From contig CACWNQ010000001.1 in the NCBI GenBank assembly GCA_902762385.1, positions 372,001-436,000 on the forward strand: a stretch of 64,000 nucleotides of DNA, given 5' to 3'. How positions within the stretch are numbered: position 1 is the first letter of the stretch; every line of letters starts with the position of its first letter. This document shows, in pieces, positions 26,656 to 46,276 of this stretch. The DNA is from an uncultured Bacteroidales bacterium (GTDB lineage Bacteria; Bacteroidota; Bacteroidia; Bacteroidales; Muribaculaceae). The notes under the pieces are model-generated. The model was given only the letters and a program-made list of their open reading frames with translations, ran no database searches and was not told the origin of the DNA. Made by a program: the position numbers and the translations under genes.

Positions 26656-26679
26656 AAAACAAAGAAAACATATAACGAA

Positions 26680-26706
26680 GAACCAGCGCCAAATTGACGC
26701 TGGTTC
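26680..26706. terminator. Terminator between the CvfB-like gene and the cohesin-like gene
   Basis: GAACCAGCG and CGCTGGTTC form a 9-base perfect stem with TTTTC following, between convergent genes. Confidence 0.8.
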
Positions 26707-26735
26707 TTTTCATAGTAGATATTCTTTATATTTAG

Positions 26736-29486
26736 TTAATTGCCCATAAGTATTGAGTAAACCATCGTCACATCAGCACTAGTGATTGCACCGTCGCCAT
26801 TCACATCACTAGTTGCAATGAAGGTCTCATCACTATTAAGCAGATAGTTGTAGAGTGCTGTAATATCAGCACTAGTGACAACACCATCGCAGTTTACGTC
26901 ACCAATAACATGATTGGCTCCTTTGACAACTGTAACAACAACCACAAAGTCTGGAACCGAAATCTCAGTATGTGCGTCAGCTGTAGTCATAACGACGTTT
27001 TTCACAATAAACTCGGTAGTACCAGTAAAGTTCTCAATAGCCTGAATGTCAATGTTCATGACTGAACCACTATTGCCTGAGAAATCAGATGGAGGAAAAC
27101 TCACTGCAACCACACGTATATCTCCATTGTCCTTTGAATTTGCAATAACGTAGTGGTTATCGCTCATTCGGTCAGTTAGTGTGATGCTATAGTCTCCATT
27201 GCCTGCTTGAGGAATAGAAAGCTCAGTAGGCATAACAATGTCAAACTGCACCGCCGCAACATTGGTAATCTCATTATCCATAATCACAGGCACGTTCAGT
27301 GTTTTACCTGATTCTATGCTGAAGTCATCGATATAGAGAGTATCGACAGGCACATATGGCCCACTTGCTGTAACTACCACGGAAAAGTCATCGATAGTGA
27401 TGTCACCTCCACTGGTCTTAAGCACCACATTCTTAACATTGATGACTGTTGAGCTAACAAACTCTCTTGAAGCTCTGACTTTCAGATACATGATATTACC
27501 ATTATCACCAGTAAATGCTGCCAGAGGATTGCTCGATTCCACAATATGTATCAAATCCCCTTGTTGAGTGATAGTAACCACATGTCCATTGGCACGCTCT
27601 CCAAGTCGTGCCTGGTTAGAGACAGTAAGCATCTGAGGCACTTCAAGATCAAATTCAACTGCGTTGACCTCAACGGTCTCGTTAGTAAGTACCACAGGAA
27701 CTTGAACTGAACGTCCTGGAGCAATAGCAAAATCGCTGATGATAAGGTTGTCACTTGGCACATATACACCATTGGCTGTTACATCAACATCGAAGTTATC
27801 AATCACAGTCTCAACTTCATCTGCACTTGTAAGGACCACATCGGTAGCATGAATTACAGCTGTTCCTGAATAATCGCGGCTAGCAATAACATTAATGAAC
27901 ATCACCTCGCCAGTATTGCCCGAAAAATTGACTGGTGGAAAACTGAAAGCAGCAATTGAAAGAGTGCTGCCATTCACATTTGCAACCACTTGATGAGTCT
28001 CGCTCTTGCGATCACTCAGAGTAACACCTTGTGGTGAAACTGTGAGGCCTGTGGGCAGTTCTAATTTTAACTGGAAAGCAGCAACTGGTGTTGCCTCGTT
28101 ATCCATAATCACTGGAACTTGCAACGTTTGACCAGGAGTGATCTCAAAGTCATTGATATAGAAGAGATTCTCAGGCACGAACACACCATCGGCAGTTACT
28201 GTTACATCAAAGTCTTCGAGTGTAGTGACATCACTATTAGGCTCTATAAGACGCACATTGCTCACATTGATAACAGCCTGGCCTTCAAAAGTTCGGTCAG
28301 CAGCCACCTCAATATCAAGGACAGAGCCCTCGGTACCAGTGAAAAGTCGCCCATATTTCCCTTTGACTTCCACTTTATAGATGCCATCATCGAGTGTTGT
28401 GACAATCAAATTATGATTAGGCGCTCTATTGGTAAGAGTAAATGCATCCTCTGAAACTGACAATCCCTGTGGCAATGTCATTTCGAAACTAAAAGAGCAA
28501 AACTGAGTTACTTCGTTTTCAAGAAGCACAGGCATGATTTTCTTTTTACCTGGCTTGATGACAAAGTCTTCAATAGTCAAACGATCTGTAGGCACATAAA
28601 CACCATTGGCAATTACGTTGACATCAAAGTCCTCAACCGGGCTCTCATGTGCATCACTCGTAGAGAGCATCACATTGCAAAACGAAATCACTGCACTATC
28701 TGTAAATGATTTGCTCGCAGTGAAATCGATATACATTATATCGCCACTGTCACTACTGAAATCAGCAGTAGGGAAACCAAATGCCACCACGCTCCAATGA
28801 TCACCGTTGTAGTTGGCGGCCAACTGGTGAGTCTCGCCCTTGCGGTCGCTAAGGGTAAACGAGCCGGCAGTAGTGGAAATCCCCGCAGGCAGATACATAT
28901 CAAACTGGAAACCAGCAATGGCGCTAGCATGATTGTCAAGAACCACGGGCACTCGCAACGTACTGCCTGGCGCAATCTCAAAATCGTTCATATAGAACTC
29001 GTTGCCAAGCACGATAAACCCTTCTGCAGTTACAGTGACCGCAATGTCAGGACAACTATGCTCATGAGCATCGGCTGTAGTAAGCGCAATGTTCTTAACG
29101 TTGATAGTGGCCTGACCATCAAAGTCGGTCGCGGCCACCACATCGATGGTCAGCACTGCCCCACTCTGTCCTGAGAAATTAGTGGCAGGGAAACTGAATG
29201 CCATTACCGTTATGTGGTCGCCATTAACCTTTGTCATAAGTTGGTGTGAGTTCGAAGCACGTTCGCCCAACCTGAAACCACCATCGGCAACACTAAGGTC
29301 CGACGGAATATAAAGGTCAAATTGGAAAGCAGCAAAATCGGTATCGGGATTATCGAGCAAGACTGGCACAGTGATTGTGTCGCCAGCCTTAACCGAGAAG
29401 TCGTCGATGCGCAACACATTAGCCGCCTGAGCATGTAAAGCTCCAGTCACCAACAATAGAGTTAAAACATGAAATAGCTTTTTCAT
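26736..29486 (-). CDS. Secreted protein of six cohesin-like modules with C-terminal dockerin
   Basis: A 916-residue exported protein, signal peptide about 1-21. Six modules of about 135 residues follow, at about 23-156, 163-295, 302-434, 441-573, 580-709 and 717-855. Each opens with the pattern D-F-x-[IV]-x-x-G-x-x-x-x-[VM]-P-V-x-[LM]-[DTE]-N, passes through F-x-[LM]-x-[LVM]-P and a G-x-[IV]-[ML] turn, and ends in N-V-x-L-x-x-x-D-type strands. This is the order of strands in type I cohesin domains. Residues 860-916 are a type I dockerin with two calcium loops (DVNCDGVVTSAD and DVNGDGAITSAD), each followed by a helix. There is no enzyme or sorting tail. Multi-cohesin plus dockerin is the layout of a scaffold, but partner binding is inferred. 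Confidence 0.82.
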   Translation of the reverse strand: MKKLFHVLTLLLVTGALHAQAANVLRIDDFSVKAGDTITVPVLLDNPDTDFAAFQFDLYIPSDLSVADGGFRLGERASNSHQLMTKVNGDHITVMAFSFPATNFSGQSGAVLTIDVVAATDFDGQATINVKNIALTTADAHEHSCPDIAVTVTAEGFIVLGNEFYMNDFEIAPGSTLRVPVVLDNHASAIAGFQFDMYLPAGISTTAGSFTLSDRKGETHQLAANYNGDHWSVVAFGFPTADFSSDSGDIMYIDFTASKSFTDSAVISFCNVMLSTSDAHESPVEDFDVNVIANGVYVPTDRLTIEDFVIKPGKKKIMPVLLENEVTQFCSFSFEMTLPQGLSVSEDAFTLTNRAPNHNLIVTTLDDGIYKVEVKGKYGRLFTGTEGSVLDIEVAADRTFEGQAVINVSNVRLIEPNSDVTTLEDFDVTVTADGVFVPENLFYINDFEITPGQTLQVPVIMDNEATPVAAFQLKLELPTGLTVSPQGVTLSDRKSETHQVVANVNGSTLSIAAFSFPPVNFSGNTGEVMFINVIASRDYSGTAVIHATDVVLTSADEVETVIDNFDVDVTANGVYVPSDNLIISDFAIAPGRSVQVPVVLTNETVEVNAVEFDLEVPQMLTVSNQARLGERANGHVVTITQQGDLIHIVESSNPLAAFTGDNGNIMYLKVRASREFVSSTVINVKNVVLKTSGGDITIDDFSVVVTASGPYVPVDTLYIDDFSIESGKTLNVPVIMDNEITNVAAVQFDIVMPTELSIPQAGNGDYSITLTDRMSDNHYVIANSKDNGDIRVVAVSFPPSDFSGNSGSVMNIDIQAIENFTGTTEFIVKNVVMTTADAHTEISVPDFVVVVTVVKGANHVIGDVNCDGVVTSADITALYNYLLNSDETFIATSDVNGDGAITSADVTMVYSILMGN
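26922..29420 (-). repeat. Six tandem cohesin-like modules (about 400 bases each)
   Basis: The coding DNA for residues 23-855 is six diverged direct repeats in frame, separated by linkers that mostly read G-[VF]-[YF]-V-P. Modules 2 and 4 share the longest similar stretches. Confidence 0.75.
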
Positions 29487-29519: not shown

Positions 29520-31238
29520 TTATTTCACAAGCACCTTCTTACCGTTAATTACATAAACACCTGTAGGAAGCCCCTTTGTTGCCTCAACTGGATTTGCGTT
29601 ATGACGCAGAAGTATTCCTCGCATGTCATAAACATCAACGCTCATTGCGTTATTACCCACTTGAGAAATAGCAGTGACTACAGGAGCAGCATTAACATTG
29701 GGCAGCACGCTTTCAACTTCATTACTCTGAGTGAAGAAGATATCGCTGATAATCATGTTACTACTTGCATCGATCGAAGCATCGGTTTTCACCTTAAGAG
29801 TAATAATAGCATCGTTGCCAGCAGCTATCTCTGTGTTACCGATAGAGAACCCAAGCAGACGGATAGAACCGTCGGGGTTAACACCGGTCATCAACGTGTG
29901 AGAAGCAGCACGACCAGTGAGAGATGCACTCTCAAGTGTGAGACCCTGTGGCAAGGTAACATCCATCTGGAAACCAGCATAAGGTGTTGCATTGTCAAGA
30001 ACGATAGCGATAGTTCCGGTTGCTGGGTCGAAGTCGCCAAGGCTTAGCACATCGTTCGTAATTGCCTTCGACATCCGCAACATTGGAGCAGCACTGTTAC
30101 CCACTGCGATATTGGCAATAGCAATAAGGTCGGTGATATTGATAGAACCGCTTGCATTTACGTCGGCAGCCTCTTCAACAAACACCTCGGGAGTGATGCC
30201 CACAATATAGTTGGCTACGCACATCACATCGGTGACATTAACCTTCTTGTCGGCATTCACATCACCAGGAATTGGGAGTTCCTCAAATGGTAATGTACCT
30301 GTATTGAGAATAATCTTAGCGTTGCCGCCAATGAATCCCATGCCGTCGCGAACAGGGTCAGCAAGGGTTATGTTGCCCATATCAAACTCAGTCTCAGAAG
30401 TAACAAAAGCCTTTGCATCCTCATTAGTTAGCACATCGGCATAACCATCAGCGTTCTGCTCCCAATTATAGAGGCCAAAATGATAAGTGATTCCCGTTTG
30501 GTTGTCCTTATAATCGGTTAATACTTGATTGGGGTTCACCCATGAGTTTTTATCATCACCAGGGGCATACTCTGGAACAAAACCATAGTCTAGGAAGTTA
30601 TAAATTGTTATCTTGTTATTATAGTAATATAGATATACTGGGAATAATGCCACCTCGCCAGTGTTATAAACATGGTCATTACTGTCGAAATCGACCTCGT
30701 CGTAGGTCATAGTGGCATTGCTGGCAATGAACTGAGTGAACATGCCATTCTCATACATCGCACCAGCATTCACGTAGGTATCATTGTCAGGGTCATAATA
30801 GATTAAAGCCAAATTCCATGTGGTAGAAATAGTGAAGCCACTGGAATTCACACGACCAGAGAGACTGGTGTTAAGAACAGTATTCACATTCTCATTATTC
30901 ACAACCGACTGAGCAACCACATAGAGGTAGCACGTATATTGCTCATATTGATAGGTGTAAACACTCTGAGGCAAGAACTGGATAGTATTGGCTCCCCAGT
31001 TTACGCTAAAAGTAAGGTCACTACCTTGAGCGAAATAGTTTGACACCGTCACACGACTTGTGCCTCCAGTATACGCCATCTCCACACGGTTAGAGCCTAT
31101 AGTGGCACCGGTCTGGATGTCACGGTCCATCTCAATGTTGATGCTTGCAAGTTTTTCGGCAGTGAAAGCCGAAGCAGCCCACGACACATTGGGCATCATT
31201 AAAGCAAGCAAAAATGTTGCTAAAAAATATTTTTTCAT
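29520..31238 (-). CDS. Secreted protein with dockerin, one cohesin-like module and sorting-type C-terminus
   Basis: A 572-residue exported protein; the signal peptide ends near residue 22. Residues about 25-320 are an unrecognised beta-rich domain with many Tyr, Asn and Asp. Residues 324-380 form a type I dockerin with two loops (DVNADKKVNVTD and DVNASGSINITD). Residues about 397-520 form one cohesin-like module related to those of the neighbouring six-module protein (AGFQMDVTLPQGL, TGRAASHTLM). Residues 525-572 look like a C-terminal sorting domain of the type IX secretion type A kind: VDVYDMRGILL, then LPTGVYVINGKKVLVK. It lies 33 bases before the six-module gene. The dockerin-then-cohesin order with a sorting tail suggests an adaptor on the cell surface; that is inference. 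Confidence 0.8.
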   Translation of the reverse strand: MKKYFLATFLLALMMPNVSWAASAFTAEKLASINIEMDRDIQTGATIGSNRVEMAYTGGTSRVTVSNYFAQGSDLTFSVNWGANTIQFLPQSVYTYQYEQYTCYLYVVAQSVVNNENVNTVLNTSLSGRVNSSGFTISTTWNLALIYYDPDNDTYVNAGAMYENGMFTQFIASNATMTYDEVDFDSNDHVYNTGEVALFPVYLYYYNNKITIYNFLDYGFVPEYAPGDDKNSWVNPNQVLTDYKDNQTGITYHFGLYNWEQNADGYADVLTNEDAKAFVTSETEFDMGNITLADPVRDGMGFIGGNAKIILNTGTLPFEELPIPGDVNADKKVNVTDVMCVANYIVGITPEVFVEEAADVNASGSINITDLIAIANIAVGNSAAPMLRMSKAITNDVLSLGDFDPATGTIAIVLDNATPYAGFQMDVTLPQGLTLESASLTGRAASHTLMTGVNPDGSIRLLGFSIGNTEIAAGNDAIITLKVKTDASIDASSNMIISDIFFTQSNEVESVLPNVNAAPVVTAISQVGNNAMSVDVYDMRGILLRHNANPVEATKGLPTGVYVINGKKVLVK

Positions 31239-31256: not shown

Positions 31257-33236
31257 TTATTTAAAAAGTTTCTTAGTATTGCTGCGAGTGCCATTGTCAT
31301 AAGTAGTGACAACAATATTCACACCATTAAACGGTGTGCTGCTCTCAATACCCATCATGTTGTAGTACTTCACGTCAACAACCTTGCCAGTCGCCTGAAC
31401 TGTGTTGATTGCAGTGGGCACATCGTAGAGACGCAGAGGATATACAATATATTCGGTCGAGAGGTCATCAGTAACAGGATTACTTTGGTTACCATCTTTC
31501 AAAAGTGGTGCGCTACTTGTAGCAGGTGCGACTTTTCTCAAAATAGCATCAAACTCATAAACATATCCATCCTGCGGGTTGCCAGATGGAAAGTAATCCC
31601 AGTTAACCTTGATGCCGCCAGAAAGATTATCAACATTACCATCACTCATTGTATAGAAATTGCCGTCGGCAGCATTATAGCATGCCCAAGTGATGTAGGC
31701 ATATTCCTGCACCTTTGGAGCCACGAAGAAGAAATGGCTATTAGGCGCATAATACTCTTCGTTGAAGCTTGGCATTATATAGATGTTGGGGTCGTAAGGC
31801 TTAGGATCTCCAACCTCGGGTGTTGAGGTAACCGCAATAGTGGGGTTAACCTTGTCAACCAGTTTACCAGTTATGCTCTTACTCTTGATTATCTTTCCCA
31901 CATAGTTGTCGGCATTGGCAACGCCTGTAAGCATTACCCAGTTGCTTTGGTCAAAATCAACAACAGGCTGCACCTTGGTGTTGCCCATATATTCTGCCTC
32001 AACTCGACCCAAGAAGTCAATCTGTCCTTCACCAATCTGCGATGGATATTTATACTTGCCTATATCTTTTGCAAAGAGCACGTTACCCAAAGTGATTGGA
32101 AAGTTATTGCTTGACGGTCCGTAACGCCTTCCATTGACATAACTCCATCCACCGCTATCATTATTTTGTGCCAAGTCGGTTGTGATACTAAAATAACTAT
32201 AACCATCACTTCTGTCATAAAAATTCACAATGGCACTATAATGTACTCCATCAGTTGTTTCCATACGTTGCCCTTGAGTGGGATCCCACCCATTAATGTT
32301 ATAGTCGTTTACCTGTCCAAAAATATGAACTCTTGTGACACCATCTTCAAAATCAACATTCCATGGTGTTAATTGCTCTGTAGAAGATGCTTGTGACACC
32401 CTAAGAGATACAGGCTTTTTATTGTCGTCTAAATCTACTTCTAATTTATATCTTCCAGGAGCAATTTTGAAAGTATTTTCAGTAGTATAATCCGCAAACT
32501 GAATACCCTCAGCTGGCACATTATCAATAACCTTTACACCTACAAGATCATCGTAAACCTCATATTCCTCACCTACGGTGCCATCGTTGACAATATCAAC
32601 CAATTCGGTCTTGTAAGGAGTTAATACTGAACTTTCAAAATATTCAACGACACCAACATATCCAGCAGAACGTTCAGTTCTGATAAAATGTCCCCATGGA
32701 GTCATAGAAAAAGAATCATTCTCCATATCGTAAGTAACGTTCACATAACCTTGTGAAAGACCATATGCAGGTCTTGTTCCATCAAATGCATCGAGGTATG
32801 GATTACTAGTATTTGTATTTGGCATGGCTGGAGAAACAAAACCAAAGAACCATTTTGTAGCAGTGTAATGTCTTCTATTAAAGTCTACAAATACACTTTT
32901 TTGCATATTACAATAGAAATGTTCTCTCCATTTAAAGGTTGCAATTGTATTTGTCTCATCCCAAGAGGTCATACTTGGAATAGATACAATTGTAATAGGA
33001 CCTGTAGTAGCATCATAAGGATATGCAGTCTGATAAAAGTTCGCAAAAGAAAACGTGTTAGCTGTTACATCCCATGTCACAGTCACTTTCCATGAACTCA
33101 CAACTTCACCACCTCGATAATTATTCATAATATAGTCCTTAGTGAAAGAAGCTGGTTGAGCTTTTGCGGTATTATTTGTAGCTAGCGTGGTGAACATTGC
33201 AACAAATAATACTGATAGAGTTAGAAATTTTCTCAT
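31257..33236 (-). CDS. Secreted protein sharing N- and C-terminal domains with its neighbour
   Basis: A 659-residue exported protein, signal peptide ending about residue 26 (TAKAQ). Residues about 27-210 form a domain also present in the 271-residue protein upstream: QPASF start, then a GxVV-x-x-W segment, FxNFY, and a PWG followed 15-20 residues later by VVEYFESS. The central about 400 residues are beta-rich and unrecognised. Residues about 605-659 carry the tail VVDVKYYNMMGIESS, PFNGVNIVVTTYDNGT and KKLFK, a variant of sorting-type C-termini. It is 18 bases before the dockerin gene. Probably surface-exposed; function unknown. Confidence 0.75.
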   Translation of the reverse strand: MRKFLTLSVLFVAMFTTLATNNTAKAQPASFTKDYIMNNYRGGEVVSSWKVTVTWDVTANTFSFANFYQTAYPYDATTGPITIVSIPSMTSWDETNTIATFKWREHFYCNMQKSVFVDFNRRHYTATKWFFGFVSPAMPNTNTSNPYLDAFDGTRPAYGLSQGYVNVTYDMENDSFSMTPWGHFIRTERSAGYVGVVEYFESSVLTPYKTELVDIVNDGTVGEEYEVYDDLVGVKVIDNVPAEGIQFADYTTENTFKIAPGRYKLEVDLDDNKKPVSLRVSQASSTEQLTPWNVDFEDGVTRVHIFGQVNDYNINGWDPTQGQRMETTDGVHYSAIVNFYDRSDGYSYFSITTDLAQNNDSGGWSYVNGRRYGPSSNNFPITLGNVLFAKDIGKYKYPSQIGEGQIDFLGRVEAEYMGNTKVQPVVDFDQSNWVMLTGVANADNYVGKIIKSKSITGKLVDKVNPTIAVTSTPEVGDPKPYDPNIYIMPSFNEEYYAPNSHFFFVAPKVQEYAYITWACYNAADGNFYTMSDGNVDNLSGGIKVNWDYFPSGNPQDGYVYEFDAILRKVAPATSSAPLLKDGNQSNPVTDDLSTEYIVYPLRLYDVPTAINTVQATGKVVDVKYYNMMGIESSTPFNGVNIVVTTYDNGTRSNTKKLFK

Positions 33237-33302
33237 AATAGTATAAATAAAATGACTATCTAAATATTTAATTTGATATCGATGTTTTTAGTTTATGTTT
33301 AT

Positions 33303-33327
33303 ACCCTCTTATCAGCAAGAAGAGGGT
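33303..33327. other. Hairpin in the gap between the two paralogous secreted genes
   Basis: ACCCTCTT and AAGAGGGT form an 8-base stem with a 9-base loop. There is no strong T run in either direction, so it may be a weak terminator, an RNA stabiliser, or nothing. The rest of the 148-base gap shows no gene. Confidence 0.4.
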
Positions 33328-33384
33328 GTAACAAAATGCGTAGTGTACGGCATTCTGAGACACCCTCCTATTGCTAAAACTATT

Positions 33385-34200
33385 TTATCTCATAAATTGT
33401 TTTAAAACTGTTTTCTGCCCATTGCTAAATTCCTTAACAACGATGTTTACACCGTTAAAAGGCTTAGCCGATTCAACTCCTAGGCTGTTGTAGTAACGAG
33501 TGTTAACCACTTGAGCATTAGAGTTTACATCCTGAATTGCTGTGCTAGTATGATTCATTTCTGATCTCTCAAAATACTCAATCACGATAGATGCGCTCAT
33601 GGTGTTCCAATTGTTATTGCCAACAACGCATCCCCAGGGGTCAGAAATCTCGATTGTGCCAGCTGCAACATCGATAGTGCCGTGGCAATCCTGACCACCA
33701 TAATAGGCATAATAGCTACCAGGATCTACGTTATTGTTGATTGGGTCATAAATTCTTACAGGTGAACTTACATGCTGAAAACGAGACACCACAGCAGCCT
33801 TATATGTACGGAATGAGGCATATGAGAACGGTAGATTGGCAAAAACATCGCTCTGTCCCATAGAGCTGGCACGCCAAGTAAAGTTTGCCTTTGTGTCGCT
33901 TACCCAAGTCAGTGTTGTTGGGCTAGAAGTATCAGTGGCATAAGAAGGAAACATCAGGTTAACAACCTCATCATTCACTAAGGCATTAGAATAGAAATTG
34001 TTAAACGTCAAAACACCGGCATCCTTGTCCCACACTACATTGAGGATGTTAGTCCTTACAACATCGCCATCACGAAAGTCTTGCTGAGTGAAATTGTAGT
34101 TAAACGATTCGGGTTGTGCACTTGCTGTAAAACCCACAATCTTGCCCCCAGCAACAAGCAATAGGGCTATTAATCCAGAAAGAGTAATTAATCTTTTCAT
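33385..34200 (-). CDS. Secreted protein, short paralogue with the shared N-terminal domain and C-terminal tail
   Basis: A 271-residue exported protein; the signal peptide ends around SAQ near residue 29. Residues about 30-215 match the N-terminal domain of the downstream 659-residue protein (QPESF start, GDVVRTN, FNNFY, late DPWG and IVIEYFERS). Residues about 220-271 match its tail (TRYYNSLGVESAKPFNGVNIVV, then QKTVLKQF). It thus looks like the long protein without its central region. It is the first gene of the minus-strand secreted cluster, with its own -7 element. Function unknown. Confidence 0.78.
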   Translation of the reverse strand: MKRLITLSGLIALLLVAGGKIVGFTASAQPESFNYNFTQQDFRDGDVVRTNILNVVWDKDAGVLTFNNFYSNALVNDEVVNLMFPSYATDTSSPTTLTWVSDTKANFTWRASSMGQSDVFANLPFSYASFRTYKAAVVSRFQHVSSPVRIYDPINNNVDPGSYYAYYGGQDCHGTIDVAAGTIEISDPWGCVVGNNNWNTMSASIVIEYFERSEMNHTSTAIQDVNSNAQVVNTRYYNSLGVESAKPFNGVNIVVKEFSNGQKTVLKQFMR

Positions 34201-39056: not shown

Positions 39057-40880
39057 TTAATCAATAGGCAAAATGTTTTTGAAATCCTTCCAAGGCTTTG
39101 TATTCTTGTAGGCATCAACTGAGCTTGCAGGAACATAAAGGGGAGTTTTCTTTTCGCTCAATTTCTTCAGTACGGGTGGCACAATGGCAAGGCAAACGAT
39201 TCTTTGCATCTTGCATTTCTCAACAATCTTATCACCAATCTGCAGCATTGTAGATGGGAGCGTTAGCTCAGTTAAAGAAGTGCCACGGAAGGCGTTGTTG
39301 TTTATAGTAGTTAGTCCATTGGGCAGTTCTACAGCAGTGAACGACTTACAGTCACGGAAGGCATTCTCTCCTATTATATTAGCATTCTCAGGTAGAGTTA
39401 CCTTAACAAGATTCTCACAACCACGAAACAGCTCTTTCTCGACCACATCAAGATTACTTGGCAAGACAATCGAACGCATGCTCTTACAATCACGGAATGC
39501 ATTCTCGCCTATCATAGTCACACCATCAGGAACCTCAACTTGAGCAAAACCACATTTTCTAAAAGCCTCTTTCATTATGGTCATCAACGAACCGCCCCAT
39601 TCTATATTTTGCAATGACTTGCAATCGTTGAAGCACTTCTCACCTATCGTCTCAAGGTTTTGAGGCAAAACTACCGATTGCAAAGAGCTGCAATTTTCAA
39701 ATGTTCGAGCCATCAAAGTACGTATGTTACCATCTATTGTAACTGTGGTTAAGCGTTTGCAACCCGAGAATGCACCAGCACCCAACGAAATGACATTCTC
39801 AGGAATAATTATATTTCCTAAAGAACTACAATCGCTAAAAGCATTAGTGCCTATAGTAGTGAGAGATTCTGGAAATGTTAATAATGTAAGTGAAGAACTT
39901 CCTGCAAAACTGCCATCCATCAATGTAGTAACTCCCGATGGCACAGAAAAAGAGCCTGTCCTGGCTTGAGGATAATAGATAAGAATTTCACCTGTAGCGT
40001 CATATAGCACACCATCCTCAGTTGTATAATAGCGATTGCCACGTTCTACCTGAAATTCCTTAAGCTTCGGCATTGAACCAAATGAGTTGTTTTCAACTTG
40101 CAAATCACGTGGAAGAAAAAGACTGACAAGCTTAGTACCCTTGAATGCCTTACTGCCCAAGAATGTTAGCCCATATGGCAAGCGCACGTCAGTGATTGGC
40201 ACATCGCAGAAGGCTTCTTTACCAATCTCTCGCAATGTAGATGGCAACTCGATGCGCCTCAGGCTATTACAATTGTAAAAACATTCAGCGCCGATTACTT
40301 CTAAGCCTTCGGGTAAGTTGATTCGTGTAAGTCTTGTACAACTGTTGAAAGCATTATCACCTATCTCACGAACATTACCACGTCCCACAAAGCGAACCTC
40401 TTCCAGATTATGACAGCCATAGAATGCATAGTTGCCTATCTTACGCAGGTCGCGAGGCAGAGAAACATATCTCAGACAACTACAACCACTGAACATCGAA
40501 TTTGATATAACATCATGCTCACTTCGGTTAGAATAAGAACCTCCTCCCACTATCCTCACGCGGTCCAATTCTAGATCAATATAGTTATCAACACTACGGT
40601 CGTTCTCATCTACAGCTTTGGAGCGTTCACACAACCGTTTTATAAACTTAGCGTCATCGCCGTTCATAACACCACTTATGCGCAGGCAACGCACTCGGCG
40701 ATCTTCACCCGGACCAAGATATTCGCTCAGTTTACCAGCATCGCGCAAGTCTATATCCAGAACATCTCCTCGCAAGAACGAGCGTCTTTGCACTTCACGC
40801 TGAGGTGTGAGTGAGGGAGAGGCATAAGCTACCCCCAACCACGTAATTACTATCAAAAAAGTAACAAGTTGTTTCTTCAT
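39057..40880 (-). CDS. BspA-type leucine-rich repeat protein
   Basis: A secreted protein of 607 residues when started at the MKKQ methionine; an ATG four codons upstream is less likely. The signal peptide ends about residue 22 (VAYAS). From about residue 110 onward it is built of BspA/LRR_5 units with the pattern I-G-x-x-A-F-x-x-C-x-x-L-x-x-[IV]-x-L-P-x-x-[LV]-x-x-I, at least fifteen copies. It ends in PLYVPASSVDAYKNTKPWKDF, the usual end of these proteins in Bacteroidales, where it likely caps the solenoid. BspA-like LRR proteins bind host matrix or other bacteria. Ordinary for gut Bacteroidales. Confidence 0.9.
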   Translation of the reverse strand: MKKQLVTFLIVITWLGVAYASPSLTPQREVQRRSFLRGDVLDIDLRDAGKLSEYLGPGEDRRVRCLRISGVMNGDDAKFIKRLCERSKAVDENDRSVDNYIDLELDRVRIVGGGSYSNRSEHDVISNSMFSGCSCLRYVSLPRDLRKIGNYAFYGCHNLEEVRFVGRGNVREIGDNAFNSCTRLTRINLPEGLEVIGAECFYNCNSLRRIELPSTLREIGKEAFCDVPITDVRLPYGLTFLGSKAFKGTKLVSLFLPRDLQVENNSFGSMPKLKEFQVERGNRYYTTEDGVLYDATGEILIYYPQARTGSFSVPSGVTTLMDGSFAGSSSLTLLTFPESLTTIGTNAFSDCSSLGNIIIPENVISLGAGAFSGCKRLTTVTIDGNIRTLMARTFENCSSLQSVVLPQNLETIGEKCFNDCKSLQNIEWGGSLMTIMKEAFRKCGFAQVEVPDGVTMIGENAFRDCKSMRSIVLPSNLDVVEKELFRGCENLVKVTLPENANIIGENAFRDCKSFTAVELPNGLTTINNNAFRGTSLTELTLPSTMLQIGDKIVEKCKMQRIVCLAIVPPVLKKLSEKKTPLYVPASSVDAYKNTKPWKDFKNILPID

Positions 40881-41024
40881 GTAATAGTTCATTAGTTATA
40901 TCTCTATTAATTGTCAAAACAGATTACAAAATTGAGAAAAATAATTGATAAAAACAACACTAATGAAAATTATTTATATCATATTACCAAGCACATGTAA
41001 AAAAAGAGATGACAAAAAAAATTG

Positions 41025-42836: not shown

Positions 42837-43832
42837 TCAGAACACTTTAATCGTGATGTATCGCTTGGGGTTAGCCTTGATGTCGTTAAGCAATGAGTCG
42901 AGGCTCATGACAGCGCCATTTGCATTATCATAGAGCTGTCTGTCATTTAGCAACAAACCAAGTGATGAATTGCGGTCGTTAAGTTTCGATTTCAAGTCGG
43001 TCATTAACCCATGCATTTCCTGAATTGTGCTATTGAGCTCATTTATCGTAGTCTCTAGCTTATGGGTGGGCAATTCATTCACTTTGTTATTTAGGTTGCC
43101 AGCAAGATTGTTCAATGAACCCGACAAGTTGTTCAAGTTGGAGTGAAGATCGTTGACAGTACCGTTTACGTTATTCTCAATGCCGACAAATCCATCAATC
43201 ACACCAGGAACACTAGAGCTAAGACCTCCTGATATTTGATTCAAATTGCCCAACAGCGTGTTCAAGTCTTGAGCACTATTATTAATCTTGGCTACAAGGT
43301 CGTCGAGCTGTGATACCGAGCCATGAAGCGCCGGATTAGCTACGAGAGAATTCACATTAGTCAATATATCATTGACATGAGGCATTATCTCATTAACTTG
43401 AGGCATAAGCTCTGAGCCCACCTTGTCAAGGATTCCACCCACTTTCATGCTTGGTATCTCATCGCCCACCTTGTAATATGCTGTCGATTTAGCCAAATTT
43501 ATTGATAATGATGGTGAACCAAGTAATTCATTCGACAACTGCACTGTAGAGCCCACAGGAATCTTCAGTTCCTTATCCAAACTCATCTTTACAGTAATTT
43601 GATTTGTCTTGTAGTCAAAATCCAGTTCCTTAACAAGGCCCACATTATAACCATTTACTGTTACTGGTGTCGAAACGTTTAGGCCATTAACATTATCAAA
43701 TTTTGTGATATAGTAATTGGCGGGCTCAAAAAGATTTGCCCCTTTCAAGAACTCAATTCCCCAATAGAGCAAGCCCAAACCTAGCACTATCACAAGTGCT
43801 ATTATTACATTTTTATTAAATATCGATTTCAT
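42837..43832 (-). CDS. MCE/MlaD-family lipid transport protein
   Basis: A 331-residue protein when started at the internal ATG (MKSIFNK), which puts a -7 element a fitting distance upstream; the longer frame is rejected. One N-terminal transmembrane helix (IIALVIVLGLGLLYWGI), a single MCE domain with NVNGLNVSTPVTVNGYNVGLV, then a long helical region with many Asn/Leu (INELNSTIQEMHGLMTDLK). This is the MlaD layout: a substrate-binding subunit of an ABC system that moves phospholipids between the membranes. The partner permease and ATPase are not in this window. Confidence 0.88.
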   Translation of the reverse strand: MKSIFNKNVIIALVIVLGLGLLYWGIEFLKGANLFEPANYYITKFDNVNGLNVSTPVTVNGYNVGLVKELDFDYKTNQITVKMSLDKELKIPVGSTVQLSNELLGSPSLSINLAKSTAYYKVGDEIPSMKVGGILDKVGSELMPQVNEIMPHVNDILTNVNSLVANPALHGSVSQLDDLVAKINNSAQDLNTLLGNLNQISGGLSSSVPGVIDGFVGIENNVNGTVNDLHSNLNNLSGSLNNLAGNLNNKVNELPTHKLETTINELNSTIQEMHGLMTDLKSKLNDRNSSLGLLLNDRQLYDNANGAVMSLDSLLNDIKANPKRYITIKVF

Positions 43833-43862
43833 TAATATTTGTTTTTCTATGATTTCAACTTG

Positions 43863-43870
43863 CAAAGTTA
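43863..43870 (-). promoter_or_regulatory. Bacteroidetes -7 element (TAACTTTG) for the MCE gene
   Basis: The minus strand reads TAACTTTG 31 bases before the preferred start at 43832; the longer open frame would begin inside this element. Confidence 0.7.
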
Positions 43871-45439: not shown

Positions 45440-46276
45440 TTATAGTGAGAAATACTTTTTCAGTAATTCATTATACTGTGGCATCTTTTTCACTTTTAGG
45501 ATTGCCTCATTGAGCTGGTCGCACAGCTCAATATTTCCTTTATCAAGTGTCAACGACTGGAACTGCGTGAAACTGATTGCTTGAGAAACATCGACGTTGG
45601 GATGTGATGATGCCAGTTTCTTGGCTATCGACTCATTAATAACAGCATATTTGATGTCACCAGTCGATACCATCAAGAAGAGCTGTTCGGGACCATAAAC
45701 CGAATCTTGAACCACATAAATCGTATCACCAATCTCACGTGACAGGCTCATTATGCGTTCACGCATTGGTGAACCCTTTACAATATTGACAGTATCACCG
45801 GCCAAGTCAAGCTGACTGGTTATTGTAATGCCATCTTCGTTGCGCTGAACAAGCACCTGATTGTCGAGATACAAGGCCGAAGTAAACAAATAATGCTCCT
45901 TGTTCTCACGAGTGACAGGAAATTGTGCGGCAAGCACATCATAGGTTCCTAACTTTAGCCCATCAAGGCCATTCTGAAGACTCACGATGGGATGATACTT
46001 GAAATGCATGCCACAAGTTTTGCTCAAAAGCTGCAAAAACTCATAGTTAAAGCCACCCAGGGTGTCGCCATATGTGTAATACGACAGAGGCGAATATTCA
46101 ATTGCAACATCTATTGTGTCGCCACCACTTGCTTTGTCAACTCGGCTATGAGCACCCAACAAGCCTTCATCGCTGCCACAATTGCGCAGCAACACCATCA
46201 GCACTATTACTGCCACAAGCAGTATCGCATATAGTGCCAGTTGCCATTTCTTGGTCTGTGATATCTTCTTGAGCAT
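45440..46276 (-). CDS. Membrane-anchored solute-binding (family 3-like) protein
   Basis: A 278-residue protein with an N-terminal hydrophobic anchor (LALYAILLVAVIVLMVLL). From residue about 53 it has a bacterial extracellular solute-binding family 3 fold (TIDVAIEYSPLSYYTYGD, then GFNYEFLQLLSK and GLKLGTYDVLAAQFPVTRE, where family 3 has G-x-[FY]-D and the arginine that binds amino acids). There is no lytic transglycosylase domain, so it is not a complete MltF. It may sense or deliver an amino acid; the neighbouring alanine symporter fits this loosely. Confidence 0.78.
   Translation of the reverse strand: MLKKISQTKKWQLALYAILLVAVIVLMVLLRNCGSDEGLLGAHSRVDKASGGDTIDVAIEYSPLSYYTYGDTLGGFNYEFLQLLSKTCGMHFKYHPIVSLQNGLDGLKLGTYDVLAAQFPVTRENKEHYLFTSALYLDNQVLVQRNEDGITITSQLDLAGDTVNIVKGSPMRERIMSLSREIGDTIYVVQDSVYGPEQLFLMVSTGDIKYAVINESIAKKLASSHPNVDVSQAISFTQFQSLTLDKGNIELCDQLNEAILKVKKMPQYNELLKKYFSL

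Follow-up and report, generated by a model that had tools for sequence, protein, structure and literature searches.

In the 64,000-nucleotide stretch of contig CACWNQ010000001.1 analysed here (the window; positions 372,001 to 436,000, assembly GCA_902762385.1, from an uncultured bacterium of the Muribaculaceae), a leftwards-transcribed gene encodes P0001, a protein with six cohesins and a terminal dockerin. P0001 is reasonably likely to be the scaffold of a Gram-negative cohesin-dockerin system, with the complex bound to the surface through cohesin proteins that carry tails for the type IX secretion system (T9SS). Its six cohesins would hold some of the roughly 100 exported proteins with calcium-type dockerins, in which a near-uniform type I dockerin is situated at the end of the protein or, less often, at its start; the proteins held would include peptidases, leucine-rich-repeat (LRR) proteins, CotH, starch-binding and amylase proteins, and FGE-like proteins. 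The dockerin of P0001, which is of the same class as those of the cargo, may in turn dock on single-cohesin proteins such as P0002, the product of the adjacent gene, and these, with their T9SS-like tails, would sit on the cell surface. The outcome would be a digestive and adhesive surface complex for protein and storage polysaccharide, not a cellulosome.

P0001 starts with an ATG codon in the open reading frame (ORF) listing of the window and is organized as a predicted signal peptide, six modules of 136–141 residues each that span residues 23–855, and a C-terminal type I dockerin (Table 1). Modules 2–6 align with module 1 at 36–45% identity. An earlier note on this DNA, made from the sequence alone, had described six cohesin-like modules ending in a two-loop calcium-binding dockerin, a layout that it compared with a scaffoldin, and this description is borne out. 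In a whole-genome search the cohesin family PF00963 matches module 1 with 26.0 bits, over its cut-off of 24.1, and modules 2 and 5 with 21.3 and 17.5 bits, under it; modules 3, 4 and 6 are unreported in that search. When a 92-row profile of the modules is compared with PDB sequences, cellulosomal scaffoldin cohesins are at the top (best 5n5p_A, E 6.6e-4). The AlphaFold2 model of module 1 has a predicted local distance difference test score (pLDDT) of 95.1 and a predicted template modelling score (pTM) of 0.87, and its best 50 matches in the PDB are all cohesins, cohesin-like modules or cohesin-bearing chains, the first being 6kgd_A (E 4e-8, template modelling score 0.80). The closest fold is that of solved scaffoldin cohesins and, judged by sequence and by predicted fold, the modules are cohesins. 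That they might instead have an unrelated Ig-like fold resembling cohesin is hinted at by a plain whole-protein Pfam scan, which does not name the modules as PF00963, but the probability of this is negligible: the sequence and fold searches both give cohesins first. Modules modelled as an unrelated fold, an outcome that the earlier note had set against its own proposal, did not occur, and the Ig-like alternative is rejected on the fold search of module 1.

The P0001 dockerin (PF00404, residues 862–910) scores 49 bits in the Pfam scan, against a cut-off of 22.9, and 55.4 bits in the genome search. As in a scaffoldin, several cohesins stand behind one hydrophobic, export-like N-terminus; their tandem arrangement with a dockerin is accompanied by a large set of dockerins elsewhere in the genome. 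No family of carbohydrate-binding module (CBM) is found in P0001 at E≤1. Such modules are not present in every known scaffoldin.

The genome (G000; 2.89 Mb, 96.6% complete) belongs to a genus that is probably Sodaliphilus, judging from the account of that genus in PMC10872696 and from the names of near relatives. A search for other dockerin proteins, which the earlier note had proposed, gives 105 dockerin matches at E≤1 in 103 reading frames, with 103 of the matches over the family cut-off. The note's second refuting outcome, a genome with no dockerin proteins beyond the neighbouring one, thus did not occur either. One that falls under it, in a TonB-receptor-like protein (D089), is probably a chance match. 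The dockerin lies no more than 13 residues from the frame end in 75 of the 103 frames, 72 of them firm; the other three frames (D086, D088 and D103) end at a stop within the match or at the edge of a contig. In 13 frames the dockerin starts by residue 40. By a simple hydropathy rule 100 of the 103 frames have an export-like N-terminus, and among the three without one, two are marked as cut and one has an internal start. Most dockerins are closely alike: 94 of the 99 aligned (longer than 45 residues), that of P0001 included, form one cluster, with P0002, D072 and D099 in a second and D015 and D067 standing alone. With the second cluster excluded, each of the calcium positions 1, 5 and 12 in either loop is an Asp in 95 or all 96 of the 96 dockerins.

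Pfam families found in the 103 dockerin ORFs at E≤1e-4 are Dockerin_1 (99 ORFs), LRR_5 (17), Peptidase_C10 (11), CBM26 (8), CotH (6), FGE-sulfatase (6), Peptidase_S8 (5), Peptidase_M6 (4), alpha-amylase (4), GHL10 (2), NAGPA (2), GH53 (1) and GH113 (1), the family lists covering all but four weak families of one 28-ORF subset. This cargo of peptidases, BspA-like LRR proteins, CotH, CBM26/amylase and FGE-like proteins is not classically cellulosomal. A classical cellulosome acting on plant cell walls would agree with PMC10872696, in whose dockerin passages metagenome-assembled genomes (MAGs) of Sodaliphilus from goat kids, likewise dockerin-rich (63–107 per genome), are named as candidates for cellulose degradation, and with the presence here of dockerins on one GH53, one GH113-like and two GHL10 proteins. 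It is nonetheless very improbable, and is rejected on the family lists of the dockerin ORFs, since GH5, GH9 and GH48 are not among the families listed (the search for cellulases being confined to the dockerin set) and no CBM is found in P0001. Peptidases and CotH proteins are not foreign to cellulosomes: the accessory components of known ones, according to PMC12484212, include proteases, inhibitors and CotH proteins.

Some dockerin genes are grouped. On contig C3, 19 dockerin ORFs (D020–D038, several of them C10 peptidases) lie within 75 kb (150.9–225.4 kb; loci L052–L057). The FGE-sulfatase-like domain occurs in six of the 28 ORFs of one subset, mostly with the dockerin right behind the signal peptide rather than C-terminal (loci L038, L046, L048, L049, L062, L079 and L099; among D051, D053, D057, D079, D082, D092 and D102).

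P0002 adjoins P0001 and contains a dockerin, a cohesin and a T9SS-like tail. Its dockerin matches PF00404 with 40.5 bits in the Pfam scan and 45.9 bits in the genome search, and its cohesin scores 51.4 bits by the module profile. In a full-length model the dockerin and cohesin are fair to good and the N-terminal domain has a pLDDT below 50, perhaps because the alignment mixes unlike N-terminal domains; in a PDB search with this model cohesins fill the first 14 places, a result that bears on the cohesin part alone. Two paralogues, D039 and D040, sit together on contig C3, and their tails match TIGR04183 with 24.1 bits (over the cut-off of 23) and 21.9 bits (under it), respectively. The genome contains SprA (TIGR04189, 2711 bits, cut-off 200), by which alone the presence of the T9SS machinery was judged. 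P0001, P0002 and two upstream genes occur in the same order in three further species of the genus (genomes G010, G011 and G030), with full-length orthologues 71–83% identical to P0001 and 74–88% identical to P0002. On this sequence evidence P0002 is a likely candidate for the surface anchor of P0001. The absence of a sorting tail reported in the earlier note thus holds for P0001 itself but not for its neighbour, with its T9SS type A-like tail. The note's remark that no carbohydrate-active enzyme lies nearby stands for the 17 other ORFs scanned between 18.9 and 50.3 kb (7 at E≤1 and 10 at E≤1e-8), with at least two ORFs of that span (42837–43865 and 45440–46276) outside the scan.

The conserved pair could also be read as a self-assembling one, in which the cohesins of P0001 bind its own dockerin or that of P0002 to form a surface polymer or layer, with cargo playing a minor part. 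P0001 and P0002 adjoin in four species and, since the P0001 dockerin is of the cargo class, head-to-tail chains are possible. We regard this as improbable, because it leaves the size of the dockerin set unexplained and because neither polymer-type repeats nor pilin families are found in the Pfam scan of P0001.

The genome has further cohesin proteins. A box profile applied to the fetched stretches finds 15 cohesin modules in the genome, some partial, in six genes; the 92-row module profile gives 14 matches genome-wide. Four of the six genes are those of P0001, P0002, D039 and D040; the remaining two, on contigs C32 and C13, resemble each other and encode three cohesins apiece, the C13 copy with an interrupted frame. 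The loci on C13 (L087) and C32 (L096) are near-duplicates in which the three-cohesin gene stands beside that of a ~1,340-residue S8-type protease that has both a divergent dockerin and a T9SS-like tail. Elsewhere in the genus there are small cohesin-dockerin, cohesin-dockerin-cohesin and dockerin-cohesin proteins, and the ends of several resemble T9SS tails by eye. In two distant relatives (L152 and L153) two cohesins are combined with an end that is T9SS-like by eye, with no dockerin match.

Dockerins are present in all 31 genomes sampled from the genus, with from 16 to at least 144 in each, and 30 of the 31 have a cohesin module match. In a sample of 119 genomes of the family, each of the seven own-genus genomes has at least 48 dockerin matches; among the others, one of genus g2 has 31, 25 have 1–7 and 86 have none. 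Cohesin modules are matched in 35 of the 119. Outside the own genus (n=112), 26 genomes have dockerins, 28 have cohesins and 17 have both, compared with 6.5 expected (Fisher p 4e-7, uncorrected for relatedness). Across the order, dockerins occur in 68 of 247 genomes, five of which have at least 25 matches; four of these (G150, G194, G240 and G341) belong to three other families, and an expansion limited to this genus is therefore ruled out. Eleven loci are in MAGs named as Muribaculaceae (4), Prevotellaceae (3) or Bacteroidales (4), which come, among other sources, from goat reticulum, water buffalo omasum and red deer.

Several observations weigh against P0001 being the scaffold of a surface-bound complex. 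The full six-cohesin protein is found in four of the 31 genus genomes (G000, G010, G011 and G030), plus one (G090) in the family-wide search; with dockerins in all 31, other scaffolds must therefore serve elsewhere. The dockerin-rich genome of g2, a sister genus (G031, 85% complete), has no cohesin match, a pattern that reflects either missing data or dockerins without cohesins. Nine of the 33 dockerin-bearing genomes of the family have no cohesin match, and 11 of the 35 cohesin-bearing ones have no dockerins. The tail of P0002 matches TIGR04183 with 18.9 bits, under the cut-off. The P0001 dockerin, being of the cargo class by sequence, could equally bind the cohesins of P0001 itself. Neither P0001 nor the cargo has a visible signal for export across the outer membrane.

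Export may itself be the primary role of the dockerin. It would then replace the T9SS sorting tail and act as a secretion ticket first and a scaffold tag second: cargo in the periplasm would pair with cohesins, and would cross or stay at the outer membrane only by way of cohesin-bearing T9SS substrates. C10 peptidases, found in 57 of 59 genomes of the family, bear on this. The loci of the 30 best matches were fetched, 27 from outside the genus and three from inside, and the dockerin profile has a single match among the 30, in a genus member (L156), with none in the outside group. The C-terminus is cut off in six of the 27 outside loci and in two of the three genus loci, so that among the fetched loci L156 alone has a complete end within the genus. 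All 21 complete C-termini outside the genus are T9SS-like by eye, with 11 matching TIGR04183 at E≤0.05 and ten not, and in the genome studied here 11 of 13 C10 matches are in dockerin ORFs. In this peptidase family the dockerin thus occupies the place of the relatives' secretion tail. The predicted signal peptides of the cargo, most of which terminates at the dockerin, and the T9SS-like tails of the cohesin proteins are also consistent with export by docking. We nevertheless consider it unlikely as the main explanation. P0001 itself is tail-less, the complete C10 ends inside the genus are limited to L156 and those of the own genome, and the numbers of T9SS tails counted within the genus (9, 15 and 11) are inside the family range (median 16.5 in 56 others), by which a general loss of such tails in the genus is ruled out. 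We know of no T9SS that exports partners by docking, which also counts against it. The wider proposal, that in this genus the dockerin took over the job of the T9SS tail and one secretion signal serves ~100 proteins through a few cohesin-bearing T9SS substrates, is similarly doubtful.

P0001 as a scaffold can be compared with several known systems. It shares tandem cohesins and a terminal dockerin with cellulosome scaffoldins from Clostridia and from Ruminococcus, whose cohesins are of types I and III, but it belongs to a Gram-negative member of the Bacteroidales with a T9SS, no CBM is found in the scaffold, and peptidases and LRR proteins are present in place of cellulases. Another is the cellulosome-like complex of Candidatus Stygibacter (Cloacimonadota), also a diderm, for which PMC8542988 describes a tandem-cohesin scaffold with a C-terminal surface-attachment domain (a T9SS review being cited) and dockerin-bearing S8 and C25 peptidases. 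That organism has one 3,755-residue scaffold with CBM2/CBM3 and a tail of its own, with a few dockerin enzymes named there, whereas here there are ~100 dockerin frames, a tail-less scaffold and separate tail-bearing single-cohesin proteins. The amylosome of Ruminococcus bromii, as outlined in PMC6118326, is likewise a cohesin-dockerin assembly not directed at cellulose, with starch-related dockerin proteins; its host is Gram-positive, however, and among the dockerin ORFs described here LRR_5 proteins (17) and C10 peptidases (11) are more numerous than alpha-amylases (4).

That Sodaliphilus is rich in dockerins was already known, as was a T9SS-type scaffoldin from the Cloacimonadota. The literature searched on scaffoldins and cohesins in this group yielded dockerin counts and passing mentions, with no described scaffold found for the genus; the dockerin passages of PMC10872696 name none and connect the dockerins with cellulose degradation, whereas a scaffold, a likely anchor and the cargo families are described here. 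Among rumen Bacteroidetes more widely, cohesins in certain members and dockerins in enzymes unconnected with fibre are mentioned in PMC6071333, and the relevant lines of PMC7480376 note dockerin modules in Bacteroidetes loci and call their role undefined. PMC5830445, in its cohesin passage, attributes multi-cohesin proteins to 15 genomes from cow rumen; RUG378, in which a relative of P0001 (L147) occurs, is not among the genomes named in that passage. The dockerins of rumen Bacteroidota, so far unexplained, gain a testable partner in this divergent scaffold, with its likely anchor and cargo list. If the scaffold reading is right, a Gram-negative gut genus would use cohesin-dockerin assembly to digest protein and starch and to adhere, and the number of dockerins should not by itself be taken as a sign of cellulose degradation.

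Table 1. Features of the P0001–P0002 region (positions in the window).
Feature	Coordinates	Strand	Basis or remark
P0001, putative six-cohesin scaffold protein	26736..29486	-	916 aa
P0001 signal peptide, residues 1-21	29424..29486	-	Predicted from hydrophobic N-terminus (hydropathy rule); cleavage site guessed
Cohesin module 1	29004..29420	-	PF00963, over cut-off; predicted fold
Cohesin module 2	28587..29003	-	PF00963, under cut-off; module profile
Cohesin module 3	28170..28586	-	Module profile; alignment
Cohesin module 4	27753..28169	-	Module profile; alignment
Cohesin module 5	27345..27752	-	PF00963, under cut-off; module profile
Cohesin module 6	26922..27344	-	Module profile; alignment
P0001 C-terminal type I dockerin, cargo class	26757..26903	-	PF00404; in the cluster of 94/99 dockerins
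P0002, dockerin-cohesin protein, candidate anchor	29520..31238	-	572 aa
P0002 divergent dockerin	30114..30269	-	PF00404; separate cluster with D072 and D099
P0002 cohesin	29688..30050	-	Module profile; modelled part matches cohesins first
P0002 T9SS type A-like tail	29523..29681	-	TIGR04183, under cut-off
659-aa gene of conserved block	31257..33236	-	No Pfam match at E≤1
271-aa gene of conserved block	33385..34200	-	No Pfam match over a cut-off
Terminator-like stem-loop, 14 pairs	26678..26708	-	3' of P0001; the region has 6 such sites, 5.4 expected

A promoter scan of the region gave results near chance level, and an NCBIfam search of the neighbouring genes returned nothing useful. A BspA-like LRR_5 protein is encoded beside dnaA (39057–40892), without a dockerin match. 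The two family-less genes at 31257–34200, which precede P0002 in four species, are alike in the sequence patterns of their starts and ends.

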